Source: Thermogemmata fonticola (GTDB lineage Bacteria; Planctomycetota; Planctomycetia; Gemmatales; Gemmataceae). Taken from it: a stretch of DNA of 64,000 nt. The position numbers were made by a program, and so were the translations under genes. Shown here one piece after another: positions 5,002 to 9,748 of the stretch. The stretch covers positions 930,001 through 994,000 of the forward strand of contig NZ_JACEFB010000001.1 of assembly GCF_013694095.1 (NCBI RefSeq), read 5' to 3'. The notes beneath the pieces are model-generated. The model did no database searches. It was given only the letters and a program-made list of their open reading frames with translations, and was not told the DNA's origin. Every line of letters begins with the position of its first letter. Position 1 is the stretch's first letter.

Positions 5002-7227
5002 TCAACGCTGCTGTTTACGGAACCAGTCCAGCCAAGCTTGGGCCGCAGCCCTTCTGGCTCGCAGATCGGCACCAGGCAGAGGGCCAAAATCCTGACCGGT
5101 CAAGCTTTTCAAACCAACTCGCGCGGCACGCACCACCATCTCTTCCTCATCCAACAAGGCGGTGATCAAATCGGGAACAAGCGTTATATCATCTTTCATG
5201 GCCATAGCCAAAACTGCAGCCCGGCGCAGCTCTGGATCCTCCCCCTTCATATACTGTCGCAAGGTTTCTGCCGTCATGCGGGCTAAGCGCTCCGCCAGGG
5301 CTTGCCGGACCGCACCGGCTTTGTCCTCTGCTACTCGGCGGATGGCCATGAGCAATGCTTGGGTGTAAACGCTGCCCTTGCCATCCCGGACCGCGGCCAG
5401 GCGGAGAATCCACTGATCCTCCGTGGCCCGCATCAACTCCTCCACCAAAGGCATTGCATCCGCCGGTTGAATTGAACCAGCGGTCCCGCCCGTTTTCGGC
5501 TCCGGCCGAGGTATGGGAATCGGGGGAAGCTGAGGCGGCGGCGTAATGGCACCGGCGGGTGATACCGTAGGGCCAGGCGTTCCCCCCACTTCTTCTGTAC
5601 GCGGTTTGGGAACAGGTGGTGCGGTTCCAGTGGCCACCGACTGATTTGCTTCCGGGACAGAAGTGGAGTTTTCCCCTCCCATTGGCCTTTCTCCATGAGG
5701 TAATGGGGAAAAAGGAGGCAATCCCCCGGAACGCAATTCAGCATCACGGGTTTTTCCCTGAACGACCCGGCTCAGATCACGCACCACATTGGAACGGGCC
5801 AGAAACAAGAGGGCAAAGGCGGTATCCACTCGGTTCCCCCAACTTCCATTGGGGTGTTGCGCTGGGAGAAGGATATCTGTCCCATACTGATACCAATCGA
5901 CTGGTCCGATCTTTTCCAGACCGTAAATTACGCCCACACGTTCCAGAGACCAGAGGAAGTAGTAGTCCCGTCCGCCGAGGATATCGCGGATGCGTTTGCC
6001 TTTGCCGCCGGGGAGATTCCCTTGGAGGACGGCAGCGAGGTTGTCCAATCCTCTTTGAATGGCAGGAGCACACGGATCTCCTGCGAAGGGCATTTTCCTT
6101 TCCTGGACGGGCGGCAATGCTTTCGCAGCCGGCAGCTTCTGAACCGGTGGCTGGTGCGGTTGATTTAATTTCTGATCTTGCAGCGGCGGCTGGAAAAACG
6201 GATCGCCCTTGTCCACGCCTTTGGGATTTGGCAACTCCGGCGGCGGCTGGAAAAACGGATCGTCGAGGCGTGTGTCTTGGTTCTTCAAGCCGGCGGCTTT
6301 CGCTGGGGTGGGGGCAGACTTGGCAGGGGGAGTCAGGGGAGAGGGATCGTTGCGGAGCAGGCGTTCTTGCCGCCGGCCCACGGCCGTGGCTAAAGCCAGC
6401 AAGCCGGCGCAGGTCATCGAAGGAGAACCGGGAACGCCCCGACCGGAGTAAGGCCAGCCGCCATTGTGACATTGGGTGAGGAGAAACCGCTGCTGGATGA
6501 GATCGAATGCTTCCTCCACCGGCACGCCATGCTTGCGTGCGGCCCACAGTCCGAGTATGGCAAACTGCGTGTTGGAGTTGTCATCCCCAAAATCCCCCCA
6601 CCCCACTCCGCGGCGGAACTCCGCTTGGAGTTGCCGGGCATAACGCTGGACTGCCGGGTGGAGGCGGCTAAGGTCTCGTGCTGGTGACGTGGGTCGTACC
6701 GATGCCGCCTTTTCCACTGCGGGACGAACATCGCCACTACGCAATTCGGCGGTCAGCAATGCGCTGCGCAACTGCGCCTCCATCGCGGCCGTGCCGTGAC
6801 TGCAAGTGTACGTCCAGCCTCCCTGCGCGTTCTGACCTGCCAACAAACGAACCGCTAGCATCTGGATAATCGGGACATCTGCCGGATCGCCTAAGCGATC
6901 CAGATAGAGGATGTACAGGGCCAGGTGATAGGTCTGTGTTTCCGCAAAAGCCGCTTCGCGAATACGAGCTGTGACTCCTTTGAGGGCGGGATCATCTCCC
7001 GGCACCCCGCATTCCAGGAGCGCCAAGCCGGCCAGAGCCGTCTCACCTAACTCTCGCTCCCCTCCTCTGCCGCCTCCCCCCACATTTCGCTTGAGAAAAT
7101 GGACTCCCTTTTGAATCGCGGCATCGACTTCCCGCGGAGTCGCGGCTGACATAGGCGAAGAACCGCCAATAATCCCCGCCATGCCGAGCAGATACAACAA
7201 GGTGCACAGTATCCAAGGGCGCTTCAT
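5002..7227 (-). CDS. Exported squalene-cyclase-like toroid protein with HEAT-like C-terminus (paralogue A)
   Basis: A 741-residue protein with a signal peptide (about residues 1-29), so it acts in the periplasm or envelope. Residues 30-570 carry alpha-alpha repeats of the prenyltransferase/squalene-oxidase type, including GQNAQGGWTYTC, CHNGGWPYSGRG and QHPNGSWGNRVDTAF. A low-complexity proline-rich linker at about 310-380 holds two DPFFQPP motifs. The C-terminal 150 residues look like HEAT repeats (ELRRAAVLAMAMKDD). The Asp-rich catalytic motifs of true terpene cyclases are not evident, so enzymatic activity is not supported. The start ATG has GGAGAG seven bases upstream. It is a tandem paralogue of the next upstream gene and shares its C-terminal organisation almost motif for motif. 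Function unknown. Confidence 0.85.
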   Translation of the reverse strand: MKRPWILCTLLYLLGMAGIIGGSSPMSAATPREVDAAIQKGVHFLKRNVGGGGRGGERELGETALAGLALLECGVPGDDPALKGVTARIREAAFAETQTYHLALYILYLDRLGDPADVPIIQMLAVRLLAGQNAQGGWTYTCSHGTAAMEAQLRSALLTAELRSGDVRPAVEKAASVRPTSPARDLSRLHPAVQRYARQLQAEFRRGVGWGDFGDDNSNTQFAILGLWAARKHGVPVEEAFDLIQQRFLLTQCHNGGWPYSGRGVPGSPSMTCAGLLALATAVGRRQERLLRNDPSPLTPPAKSAPTPAKAAGLKNQDTRLDDPFFQPPPELPNPKGVDKGDPFFQPPLQDQKLNQPHQPPVQKLPAAKALPPVQERKMPFAGDPCAPAIQRGLDNLAAVLQGNLPGGKGKRIRDILGGRDYYFLWSLERVGVIYGLEKIGPVDWYQYGTDILLPAQHPNGSWGNRVDTAFALLFLARSNVVRDLSRVVQGKTRDAELRSGGLPPFSPLPHGERPMGGENSTSVPEANQSVATGTAPPVPKPRTEEVGGTPGPTVSPAGAITPPPQLPPIPIPRPEPKTGGTAGSIQPADAMPLVEELMRATEDQWILRLAAVRDGKGSVYTQALLMAIRRVAEDKAGAVRQALAERLARMTAETLRQYMKGEDPELRRAAVLAMAMKDDITLVPDLITALLDEEEMVVRAARVGLKSLTGQDFGPLPGADLRARRAAAQAWLDWFRKQQR
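6183..6262. repeat. Two perfect 23-bp direct repeats inside paralogue A
   Basis: The 23 bases at 6183-6205 recur exactly at 6240-6262, with starts 57 bp (19 codons) apart. On the minus strand both encode DPFFQPP in the linker of the toroid protein. The same peptide, with different codons, occurs once in the paralogue near 8476-8500. Confidence 0.9.
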
Positions 7228-7473: not shown

Positions 7474-9393
7474 TCACTTCTGGCGTTGCAATTCCCACCA
7501 CTGTTTCCAGGCTTCCACCGCAAGGCGTTTGTCGTGAGCGGAGGCGAAGGGCGGCGGCCCGAAGTCTTGTCCGGTGAGGGCCTTTAGCCCCGCTTTGGCC
7601 GCCCGCACCACCAGCTCTTCTTCATCGAGTAGCACCTCGATCAAATCCGGGATGTGGGATTTGTCATCTTTCATCGCCATGGCGAGGACTGCTGCTCGGC
7701 GGAGTTCCGGATAATCCTTGGCTCGTGAATAAGCCCGCAAGGTCTCCGCACTCAGGCGGGTCAAACGTTCGGCCAGGGCAGTCCGCACATCGAGCAAGCG
7801 GACCCCTTCGAGGCGATCCGCCGCCAGTGCCAGAGCTTGCGTGTTGACGCTTCCGTTGCTGTCGCGGATTTTACGCAGAGTGACCGCCCACTGGCTCTCA
7901 CTACTCCGCAGCAAAGTGGCGGCGAGCGTGGCCGCTTCGCTGTTCAAGTAAGAAGGACTGGCGGCTTTGGAAGGACGCCCCACACCCGAAGGCGTACCGC
8001 TTCCCGACGGACCGGGACCCGCTCGCATTTCTGTGTTGATGTCATTTTGGACTTTGCCGGACAAATCCCGCGCCAGGTTCGACTTGCACAAAACGAGGAT
8101 CGCAAAGGCCGTATTGACCTCTGGGTCATATCCGCCGACTTCCCAGGAACCATCCGCCGCTTGCGTCATCACCAAAGTCGTGGAAACCGCTTCGTACCAA
8201 TCGATGTTGGCAATGACATCGAGGCCGTAAATCACACCGACCCGCTCCAGCGACCAGAGGAAGTAGAAATCGTTGCGCCCATGCCCTCCACCCTGTCCGC
8301 CGAGGACGAAGGCACTGCCGCCTCGGCCATCCGGGCGCACGGAGTTGTGGAGCACCGCACCCAAGGCCGCGAAGGCAAACTGGGCCGCTCGGTCCCGCGC
8401 ATCCAACCGCAGCTTCCCCTTCTCTTCCGCTTTGGGTTCGGCCGTTTTCTTGGGCGGTGGCGGAGAGGCAGGGTCCGGCGGCTGGAAGAAGGGATCATCC
8501 GGGGTGGAGGCTCCCTCCTTCGGTTTCTCTGGCATCTTCTTCGGAGCGGGTTCTTCCGTGGCTTTCAGGCTCCGCTCTTGCCGCCGAGCAATGCCCGTCG
8601 CCAGGCCCAAGAGTCCCGCGCAGATCATGGACGGCGACCCTTCCTGGACGATGGCCACGGAAGCGCCCGCAGCCGGGCCGGTATAGGGCCATCCTCCCGT
8701 GCGTGTTTGGGTGAGCAGGAAGCGCCGCTCCACCAGGTCCAAAGCCGTATCCACCGGCACGCCGTGCTTGCGCGCCAGCCACAAGGCCAAGACGGCAAAT
8801 TGTGTGTTCGAGTTGTCATCCCCCACACTGTTCTGCGGATTGCGGCGGCTGAACAGAACTTGGGCATAGCGTTCGATGTCGGGATGCATGCGGCCCGCTT
8901 GTCCCATTGGCTTCACGGCTCGCAAAAACTGCACTTCTTTCGCGCTCACCTCCGCGATGCAGCCGTAACCCCAACCCCCTGTTTGGGTCTGGCCCACGAG
9001 AAGCCGCGCCGCCAAAGCTTGAATCAACGGGACATCGTTCGGGTCCCCCAAGCGGTCGAGATACATCAGGCAGAGCGAAATCTGGTAAGTCTGGACCTGG
9101 GTATAGGCTGCCTCCCGGACAATCCGGGTGATGTTCTGCACCGCCGGGTCTGTGGGCGGCACCCCCGCCTCCAGCAAGGCTAACCCCGCCAGACACGTCC
9201 CGCCCAGAGCATGATTGAACGGAATGTTGATGTTTGGCCCCGCGTTGGGCTGGAGATACTTCTTCTTGATCCAAGCCACGCCGCGCTGAATCGCCGCATC
9301 CACCTGTTTCGGATCCGCCGCACGCGCCGGCGCAGCCATGTATACGAGCAGCCCGAGGAGAATAGCCAAAAGTATGCCGCTTTTCCGCATCAT
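7474..9393 (-). CDS. Exported squalene-cyclase-like toroid protein with HEAT-like C-terminus (paralogue B)
   Basis: With the start at 9393 the protein has 639 residues and begins MMRKSGILLAILLGLLVYMA, a classical signal peptide ending near AARA. GGGAGG lies four to seven bases before the two ATG codons. Toroid repeats include GQTQTGGWGYGC and QTRTGGWPYTG, followed by a proline-rich linker with one DPFFQPP and a HEAT-like tail (ELRRAAVLAMAMKDDKSH). It closely matches paralogue A, so the pair looks like a tandem duplication. The frame stays open upstream to an ATG at 9642 that has its own strong ribosome-binding site and promoter. An 82-residue extension before a signal peptide would be unusual, so I take the shorter form. 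Terpene cyclase chemistry is not supported; function unknown. Confidence 0.82.
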   Translation of the reverse strand: MMRKSGILLAILLGLLVYMAAPARAADPKQVDAAIQRGVAWIKKKYLQPNAGPNINIPFNHALGGTCLAGLALLEAGVPPTDPAVQNITRIVREAAYTQVQTYQISLCLMYLDRLGDPNDVPLIQALAARLLVGQTQTGGWGYGCIAEVSAKEVQFLRAVKPMGQAGRMHPDIERYAQVLFSRRNPQNSVGDDNSNTQFAVLALWLARKHGVPVDTALDLVERRFLLTQTRTGGWPYTGPAAGASVAIVQEGSPSMICAGLLGLATGIARRQERSLKATEEPAPKKMPEKPKEGASTPDDPFFQPPDPASPPPPKKTAEPKAEEKGKLRLDARDRAAQFAFAALGAVLHNSVRPDGRGGSAFVLGGQGGGHGRNDFYFLWSLERVGVIYGLDVIANIDWYEAVSTTLVMTQAADGSWEVGGYDPEVNTAFAILVLCKSNLARDLSGKVQNDINTEMRAGPGPSGSGTPSGVGRPSKAASPSYLNSEAATLAATLLRSSESQWAVTLRKIRDSNGSVNTQALALAADRLEGVRLLDVRTALAERLTRLSAETLRAYSRAKDYPELRRAAVLAMAMKDDKSHIPDLIEVLLDEEELVVRAAKAGLKALTGQDFGPPPFASAHDKRLAVEAWKQWWELQRQK

Positions 9394-9512
9394 GAAGCCT
9401 CCCGTTTTCGCGGCTGATATGAATCCCGCAACCCGATGATCCCTCGGATTCCACTTCCTGAGCGCAAAGGCATACGGCACAGACGCCGCTTCCCCCTTGC
9501 CTTTCCAGTGTA

Positions 9513-9642
9513 TCACACCCGCCGTTGCCGCAACAGGGGCAGATCGAGCCTCCCCAAGCGATCCGCTGCCTTGGCCGCCCCGACTCGTGCCGTCGAAACG
9601 GCGAGCAATCCCACGCCGAACAGGATGGTGATTCGTAGTCAT
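9513..9642 (-). pseudogene. Possible short exported-protein gene broken by one extra base near its start
   Basis: ATG at 9642 follows a perfect AAGGAGG at 9651-9657 (spacing 8) and a good promoter. The first five codons read MTTNH. Skipping the base at 9627 opens a frame reading ILFGVGLLAVSTARVGAAKA and continuing to a TGA at 9513-9515, for 42 residues in all. That frame has mostly G or C in third positions and looks like a signal peptide plus a short tail. Unshifted, the frame has no GC bias at third positions and runs into paralogue B. It could be a decayed small gene, a sequencing or assembly indel, or a real N-terminal extension. Confidence 0.35.
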
Positions 9643-9650
9643 GGCTGGTA

Positions 9651-9657
9651 CCTCCTT
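9651..9657 (-). promoter_or_regulatory. Strong ribosome-binding site upstream of ATG 9642
   Basis: The minus strand reads AAGGAGG, a full anti-SD match, eight bases before the ATG at 9640-9642. It is a better match than the site in front of paralogue B itself, which makes the intended start of this transcript unclear. Confidence 0.7.
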
Positions 9658-9696
9658 CGTATTGGACATTTTTCCATTTCGCTGACTTCAACTGTA

Positions 9697-9725
9697 AATA
9701 TGTCCCATAAATTCGCCGCTGTCAA
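9697..9725 (-). promoter_or_regulatory. Sigma-70-like promoter for the paralogue B transcript
   Basis: On the minus strand TTGACA (9720-9725) is followed after exactly 17 bp by CATATT (9697-9702). It lies in an AT-rich island and would start transcription near 9690, about 48 bases before ATG 9642. The -35 box is perfect and the -10 box is close to consensus. Confidence 0.6.
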
Positions 9726-9748
9726 ATCGAAAAATCCATTTTTTCCAA

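Follow-up and report, generated by a model that had tools for sequence, protein, structure and literature searches.

The promoter described here can be set beside several known kinds of regulatory element. It resembles sigma-70 promoters with an UP element in its TTGACA hexamer, 17-nt spacer, -10 element with A2 and T6 and upstream A/T tract, whereas it differs from them in the additional strong conservation and the palindromic form of the spacer's 3′ half and the start region, and in that the sites are few and discrete; this conservation exceeds the known sigma-70 contacts. In single-repressor regulons, such as that of LexA, the operator lies over the -10 element and the transcription start. 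The set of sites found here is similar in being discrete, in carrying a palindrome over the promoter and in including a candidate autoregulated helix-turn-helix (HTH) gene, but lexA and recA are not members, site turnover is very high and the regulator is a candidate only. Putative mobile promoters, reportedly described by Matus-Garcia et al. in 2012 in a study cited in PMC8049555, are similar promoters that precede non-homologous genes of one genome. Similar promoter sequences upstream of non-homologous genes are also what we found, although common descent of most copies is unsupported here because non-functional columns are not shared. Finally, as in the regulons of gene transfer agents (GTAs) and domesticated prophages, phage-type genes lie behind two of the four clearly conserved sites, namely a terminase-small-subunit-like gene and a portal, protease, major head and adaptor set; in contrast to such regulons, most targets here are host genes. 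GTA packaging genes are treated in PMC7947584. In the literature searched, PMC11958385 included, no such promoter class was found for this bacterial group.

The window analysed is a 64-kb stretch of the genome of Thermogemmata fonticola (own genome, G000), and the elements discussed lie on its minus strand. The sequence-only reading had pointed to TTGACA-17-CATATT followed by AAGGAGG-8-ATG as the best expression signal of the area; both are present where it placed them, and the genome-wide data below strengthen the claim. A consensus scan located the -35 hexamer TTGACA at 9720..9725 and the -10 hexamer CATATT at 9697..9702, 17 nt apart, with 10/12 consensus matches. The promoter is thus of the sigma-70 type in having a TTGACA-like -35, a spacer within 16-18 nt and a -10 element with A2 and T6. 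The window contains four sites of at least 10/12 with a spacer of 16-18 nt, and only this one has a spacer of 17; a generic consensus scan of a 13-kb stretch gave 4 sites relative to 2.6 expected, which is not clearly above chance. Directly upstream, at 9726..9746, is an A/T-rich, UP-element-like tract, recognized from the information content per column of 25 own-genome copies of the promoter; the tract columns conserved in the class are -21..-13 and -7..-1 relative to TTGAC. The perfect Shine-Dalgarno sequence AAGGAGG occupies 9651..9657, 8 nt before the ATG at 9642. The combination AAGGAGG-N5..9-ATG is scarce in the own genome, at 13 per 800 kb on both strands.

A BLAST search of the own genome with 401 bases around the window promoter returned five more partial copies, all of them on the promoter and none on the reading frame that follows it. 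Eight own-genome sites matched the pattern TTGACA-N8-TTTATGGGACATATTTACAGT with three mismatches or fewer, and the reversed control matched 0. A sequence model (R1) built from nine copies gave, at E<=1, 34 matches in the own genome and 27 in a genome of the same genus (G001), and its best match in 39 other genomes was only E 0.0013. A second model (R2) was built from 36 of 41 aligned copies (25 from the own genome and 16 from G001), with the omission of L096, L103, L108, L109 and L110, for which the gapless register was poor, cut or unsuccessful. At E<=1e-3, R2 found 28 sites in G000, 21 in G001 and 2 in G016, a genome of a third genus, of which 25/28 in the own genome and 11/21 in G001 are training sequences that match by construction; the other 37 genomes had none at E<=0.01. 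Over 800 kb of the own genome (40 pieces, joined), the scores were bimodal, with three sites above 50, then 24.8 and 18.2 and then noise, and the maximum in the reversed control was 8.2. These counts and the bimodal scores indicate that the sites form a discrete class rather than the upper end of the ordinary promoters. The exact pattern had no match in an 84,980-species genome collection from which the own and very near genomes are possibly absent. As a separate observation, same-strand pairs of the motif in tandem, about 80-200 nt apart and with weak second members, occur at three places in G000 (C2:510637 and 510837, C8:61265 and 61355, and C9:15120 and 15199).

In the alignment of the 25 own copies, only columns -21..-13, -7..-1, TTGAC and +12..+38 from TTGAC carry information, which amounts to about 57 bits; the flanks are at background, and homology ends sharply at the promoter boundaries. 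TTGAC itself is invariant (36/36 aligned copies). Columns +14..+37 form a 24-bp imperfect palindrome, the centre of which is identical in the two species and is the best of all 24-column windows in both. In the window this operator-like element reads TTTATGGGACATATTTACAGTTGA and lies at 9688..9711, spanning the 3′ half of the spacer, the -10 element and the predicted start. The palindrome is TTTATGGTACATATTTACAGTAAA in G000 (r=0.62) and TTTATTGTTCATAATTACAGTAAA in G001 (r=0.72; 12 sequences, with L096, L103, L108 and L110 omitted), and column permutation gave p=0.002 and p=0.004, respectively, for a centre that was chosen after inspection and without correction for that choice. Because the motif overlaps the -10 element, part of the symmetry could be promoter constraint. 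Short direct repeats in the core also score, and a direct-repeat reading was rejected since they span only 6-10 columns. What was found is a discrete set of sites with a symmetrical putative binding site, as in an operator-controlled regulon. In two G001 copies, L100 and L106, TGTTC-N4-GAACA palindromes lie directly past the promoter core.

The first genes downstream of the copies are mutually unrelated and have no obvious theme. Targets include ribosomal proteins S14-S8 (S14 by eye) and L21, as well as PriA, a LeuA-type enzyme, a rhomboid protease, an ABC transporter, an ATP-grasp protein and an acyl-CoA-ligase-type enzyme. A same-strand start lies within about 850 nt of 22/25 own copies, and L091, L092 and L114 have no convincing one in that distance; leaders of several hundred bases are common. 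A perfect AAGGAGG-N5..9-ATG occurs within 250 nt behind 6/41 copies, where about 0.07 is expected (4/25 in the own genome relative to 0.043 expected, and 2/16 in G001 relative to 0.028). The pairing of promoter and ribosome-binding site in the window is, therefore, typical of the class. Two own copies, L079 (G000:C4:308612) and L083 (G000:C5:13688), are followed by 1 kb of 84% identical DNA, and behind them are long Pro/Arg-rich frames of 868 and 1093 codons.

We estimate at somewhat below 60% the probability of our main reading, which is that the window carries a single member of a class of strong sigma-70-type promoters confined to the genus, that the class is the regulon of one dedicated putative DNA-binding protein, and that the window copy drives a leader and paralogue B. 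RNA polymerase with the housekeeping sigma factor would bind TTGACA and CATATT, aided by the upstream A/T tract. One dedicated protein, probably a dimer, would bind the 24-bp palindrome and switch all copies on or off together, acting from that position as a repressor. RNA would begin near 9690 and run through a leader of about 300 nt into paralogue B.

RNA polymerase might instead read the spacer and UP element by itself, in which case the class would be a constitutive strong sigma-70 subtype of the genus. The canonical -35 and -10 elements, 17-nt spacer and UP-like tract, the housekeeping nature of some targets (PriA, and ribosomal proteins S14-S8 and L21) and the Shine-Dalgarno enrichment, which suggests a high-expression cassette, are all consistent with such a subtype. 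However, there are only about 28 sites in 4.8 Mb, with a gap in the scores and no continuum, and the conserved spacer half and start region form a palindrome; we consider a constitutive subtype unlikely.

Turnover of the sites was evaluated by comparison with G001, taking the best match of each gene as its orthologue and scanning about 1.5 kb upstream with a position weight matrix trained partly on G001 copies. Every one of fifteen promoter-bearing own genes was matched in G001. The promoter was clearly kept at L089 and L093 and was doubtful at L085 and L111, and the other eleven genes had none within about 1.5 kb upstream. It was also kept at L094 and L112, and was absent from G001 at the window locus, which was compared by alignment and blastn/tblastx only. 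Over the 18 loci compared, the promoter was thus kept at 4, doubtful at 2 and absent in the other species at 12, a turnover that is unusual for a tight regulon. The promoter consensus differs between G000 and G001 over the whole set. At L008 of G001, within about 700 nt upstream of paralogue B, the DNA resembles a decayed transposase by eye, which suggests that this intergenic stretch is a turnover hotspot.

This turnover bears on a further possibility, that promoter-sized DNA copies itself in front of unrelated genes, so that the similarity of the copies would be due to common descent with no dedicated regulator. Such copying would fit the unrelated downstream genes behind a similarity of promoter length, the absence of most sites from the orthologous locus of the sister species, and an information content far above that needed for about 28 sites. 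Some copies also share flanks: L079/L083 (84% over 1 kb), L090/L091 (84% over 160 nt), L090/L092 and L091/L092; in addition, L079 and L093 are each preceded by a 39-nt repeat that is 95% identical between them. On the other hand, once these four duplicated pairs (L079/L083 and the three among L090, L091 and L092) were removed, identity in the core and identity in the non-functional columns were uncorrelated (r=0.03) and flanks were at background, so descent from one another is not seen outside the pairs. Selection on a binding site is therefore favoured over recent copying, and the species-wide difference in consensus fits co-evolution with a factor. Self-copying thus appears rather unlikely as an account of the class. 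A dispersed short repeat of the GCGAATGGCGAATGG / CGCTCGCCGCTCGC type, which hints at copying, adjoins three of the copies (L079, L083 and L093) some 40 to 130 nt ahead of TTGAC.

As to the identity of a regulator, the genes behind the top R2 matches of G001 and of G016 belong to the same family as the gene directly behind own copy L093, the promoter of which is at G000:C1:610708-610768. Proteins of this family have an N-terminal HTH-like domain and weak similarity to terminase small subunits; the assignment is weak (the best Pfam match, a domain of unknown function, has E 0.0028, and the PHROG terminase small subunit has E 0.098). The HTH domains of G000 and G016 are 25% identical, with E 0.001 in a two-sequence comparison. 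A profile of the domain matched a single gene each in G000 and G001 and two genes in G016, with weaker matches elsewhere. In these three promoter-bearing genomes, the promoter was upstream of 4/4 genes of the family. The second G016 gene (L188), which was in no training set and was listed by neither model, has it about 140 nt before the domain match, with a score of 11.3 compared to a background 99th percentile of 7.2. The homologues examined in G020, G006, G009, G042 and G002 had no promoter upstream. An ATG lies about 80-90 nt past TTGAC in three of the four copies. In the G001 gene, the domain is deep inside the frame and the promoter is 713 nt before the domain match, and to place this gene under the promoter requires that the protein have a real, long N-terminal part. 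The occurrence on 4/4 genes is the pattern expected of an autoregulated gene, and we take the HTH protein as a candidate regulator from its position, which is a weak lead. A BlaI/MecI-type repressor was also considered and rejected, the genome having a single weak member of that family.

Behind another of the conserved copies, L112 in G000 and L096 in G001, comes a gene for a protein of 106 residues and then, as recognized from head families, genes for the portal, the head protease, the major head protein and the head-tail adaptor (G000:C15:78545-88605 and G001:C196:21819-31878). This HK97-type head cluster has the same chromosomal position in the two species and lies among conserved genes, the locus and its flanking genes being 76-94% identical, as would be expected of GTAs and domesticated prophages. 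It is possible from the gene content and position that the cluster is a domesticated prophage or a GTA-like element, and these genes suggest that the regulon may be phage-derived. The most specific form of this idea is that a phage-derived, terminase-small-subunit-like HTH regulator controls its own gene and the domesticated HK97-type head cluster, and that its site has since evolved separately in the two species, ahead of dozens of host genes; we regard this as improbable.

The spacing of the half-sites resembles that of the E. coli SOS box, and TATTGTTCATAATTACAGTA in G001 resembles TACTGTATATATATACAGTA. The class might thus be the SOS (LexA) regulon. However, neither the sole LexA-type gene found nor recA has the motif upstream, and this identity, which we rejected, is scarcely conceivable.

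The remaining question is what the window promoter transcribes. The sequence-only reading was exact in that, when base 9627 is skipped five codons into the frame of ATG 9642, translation can go on for 37 codons (9626..9516) to a TGA at 9515..9513, the whole occupying 9513..9626 and starting with a hydrophobic segment; it also rightly saw that the unshifted frame (9394..9642) continues into paralogue B. From this it had proposed a decayed small exported protein, a programmed frameshift or an assembly error, which proved wrong or without support. Neither frame is conserved, the outcome that it had itself named as decisive against these proposals: the skipped-frame peptide had nothing below E 0.1 outside its own locus in 21 genomes, and for the 92-residue unshifted stretch, which includes the 82-83 residues from ATG 9642, no match among 41 genomes, its own locus apart, was better than E 0.006.

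Open frames of these lengths are at chance level. Of 2000 dinucleotide shuffles, 20% kept the unshifted frame free of stops over 78 codons, and in 75% some other frame ran without a stop for 36 codons or more. The case for a small exported protein, decayed or frameshifted, or for a programmed frameshift, starting at ATG 9642, lies in three features of the skipped frame: its codon score is the highest among the three frames of that interval, its GC content by codon position is coding-like (0.74, 0.53 and 0.76), and its hydrophobicity was equalled in only 0.4% of 2000 shuffles, a test made after the fact. However, its codon score is 0.7 for 38 codons, or about 0.02 per codon compared to about 0.2 for real genes of the same genome; BLAST found no second copy in the own genome, and nothing conserved lies upstream of the G001 orthologue of paralogue B. 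For a programmed frameshift, conservation of both frames as protein would be expected in relatives, and was not seen. Codon usage backs neither frame. These possibilities were rejected as very improbable, and the broken frame is probably not a gene, judging from sequence comparison.

Paralogue B (7474..9393) has a signal-peptide-like N terminus and could start at ATG 9393 or ATG 9390, respectively 4 and 7 nt behind the ribosome-binding site GGGAGG at 9398..9403. A true start at 9642 would add an 83-residue N-terminal extension, and the open frame and the better ribosome-binding site would agree with it. However, the extension was not found in relatives and has a negative codon score, and each of the eight full-length relatives examined has an ATG no more than about 30 nt from the signal-peptide region. 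The G001 orthologue, 77% identical, has an ATG and an AGGAGG of its own at its start, and the DNA upstream of it has no blastn or tblastx similarity to the window leader. An extended paralogue B is hardly credible and was rejected. The starts in relatives, the G001 orthologue and the unconserved extension together place the start most likely at 9393/9390, behind GGGAGG. A related-locus search for paralogue B found nothing. Paralogue A (5002..7227) is downstream on the same strand and is possibly co-transcribed with paralogue B. In our main reading, then, translation of paralogue B would begin at 9393/9390. The leader frame, probably translated from the perfect ribosome-binding site at 9657, would have an unimportant product, and its in-frame continuation into paralogue B is likely due to chance.

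The further suggestion, that of a leader controlling paralogue B, holds in the weak sense that there is a long 5′ leader. The part that would call for an RNA structure did not hold: the fold z-score of the leader is -0.31, and a comparison with Rfam gave one sub-threshold match only, at 18 bits relative to a cut-off of 87. A structured leader RNA or riboswitch was rejected on these values.

Little is known of the promoters and regulons of this bacterial group. The approximately 28 strongly conserved promoters, with their palindrome and a candidate HTH gene, are a compact, discrete set that can be tested directly and that offers a ready strong-expression cassette. If the phage-derived regulator were real, a domesticated phage head cluster would be linked to host gene control, and host gene expression, that of paralogue B, PriA and ribosomal proteins included, would be tied to a GTA-like element. 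The promoter class would also show the near-total re-targeting of a regulon between two species of one genus.
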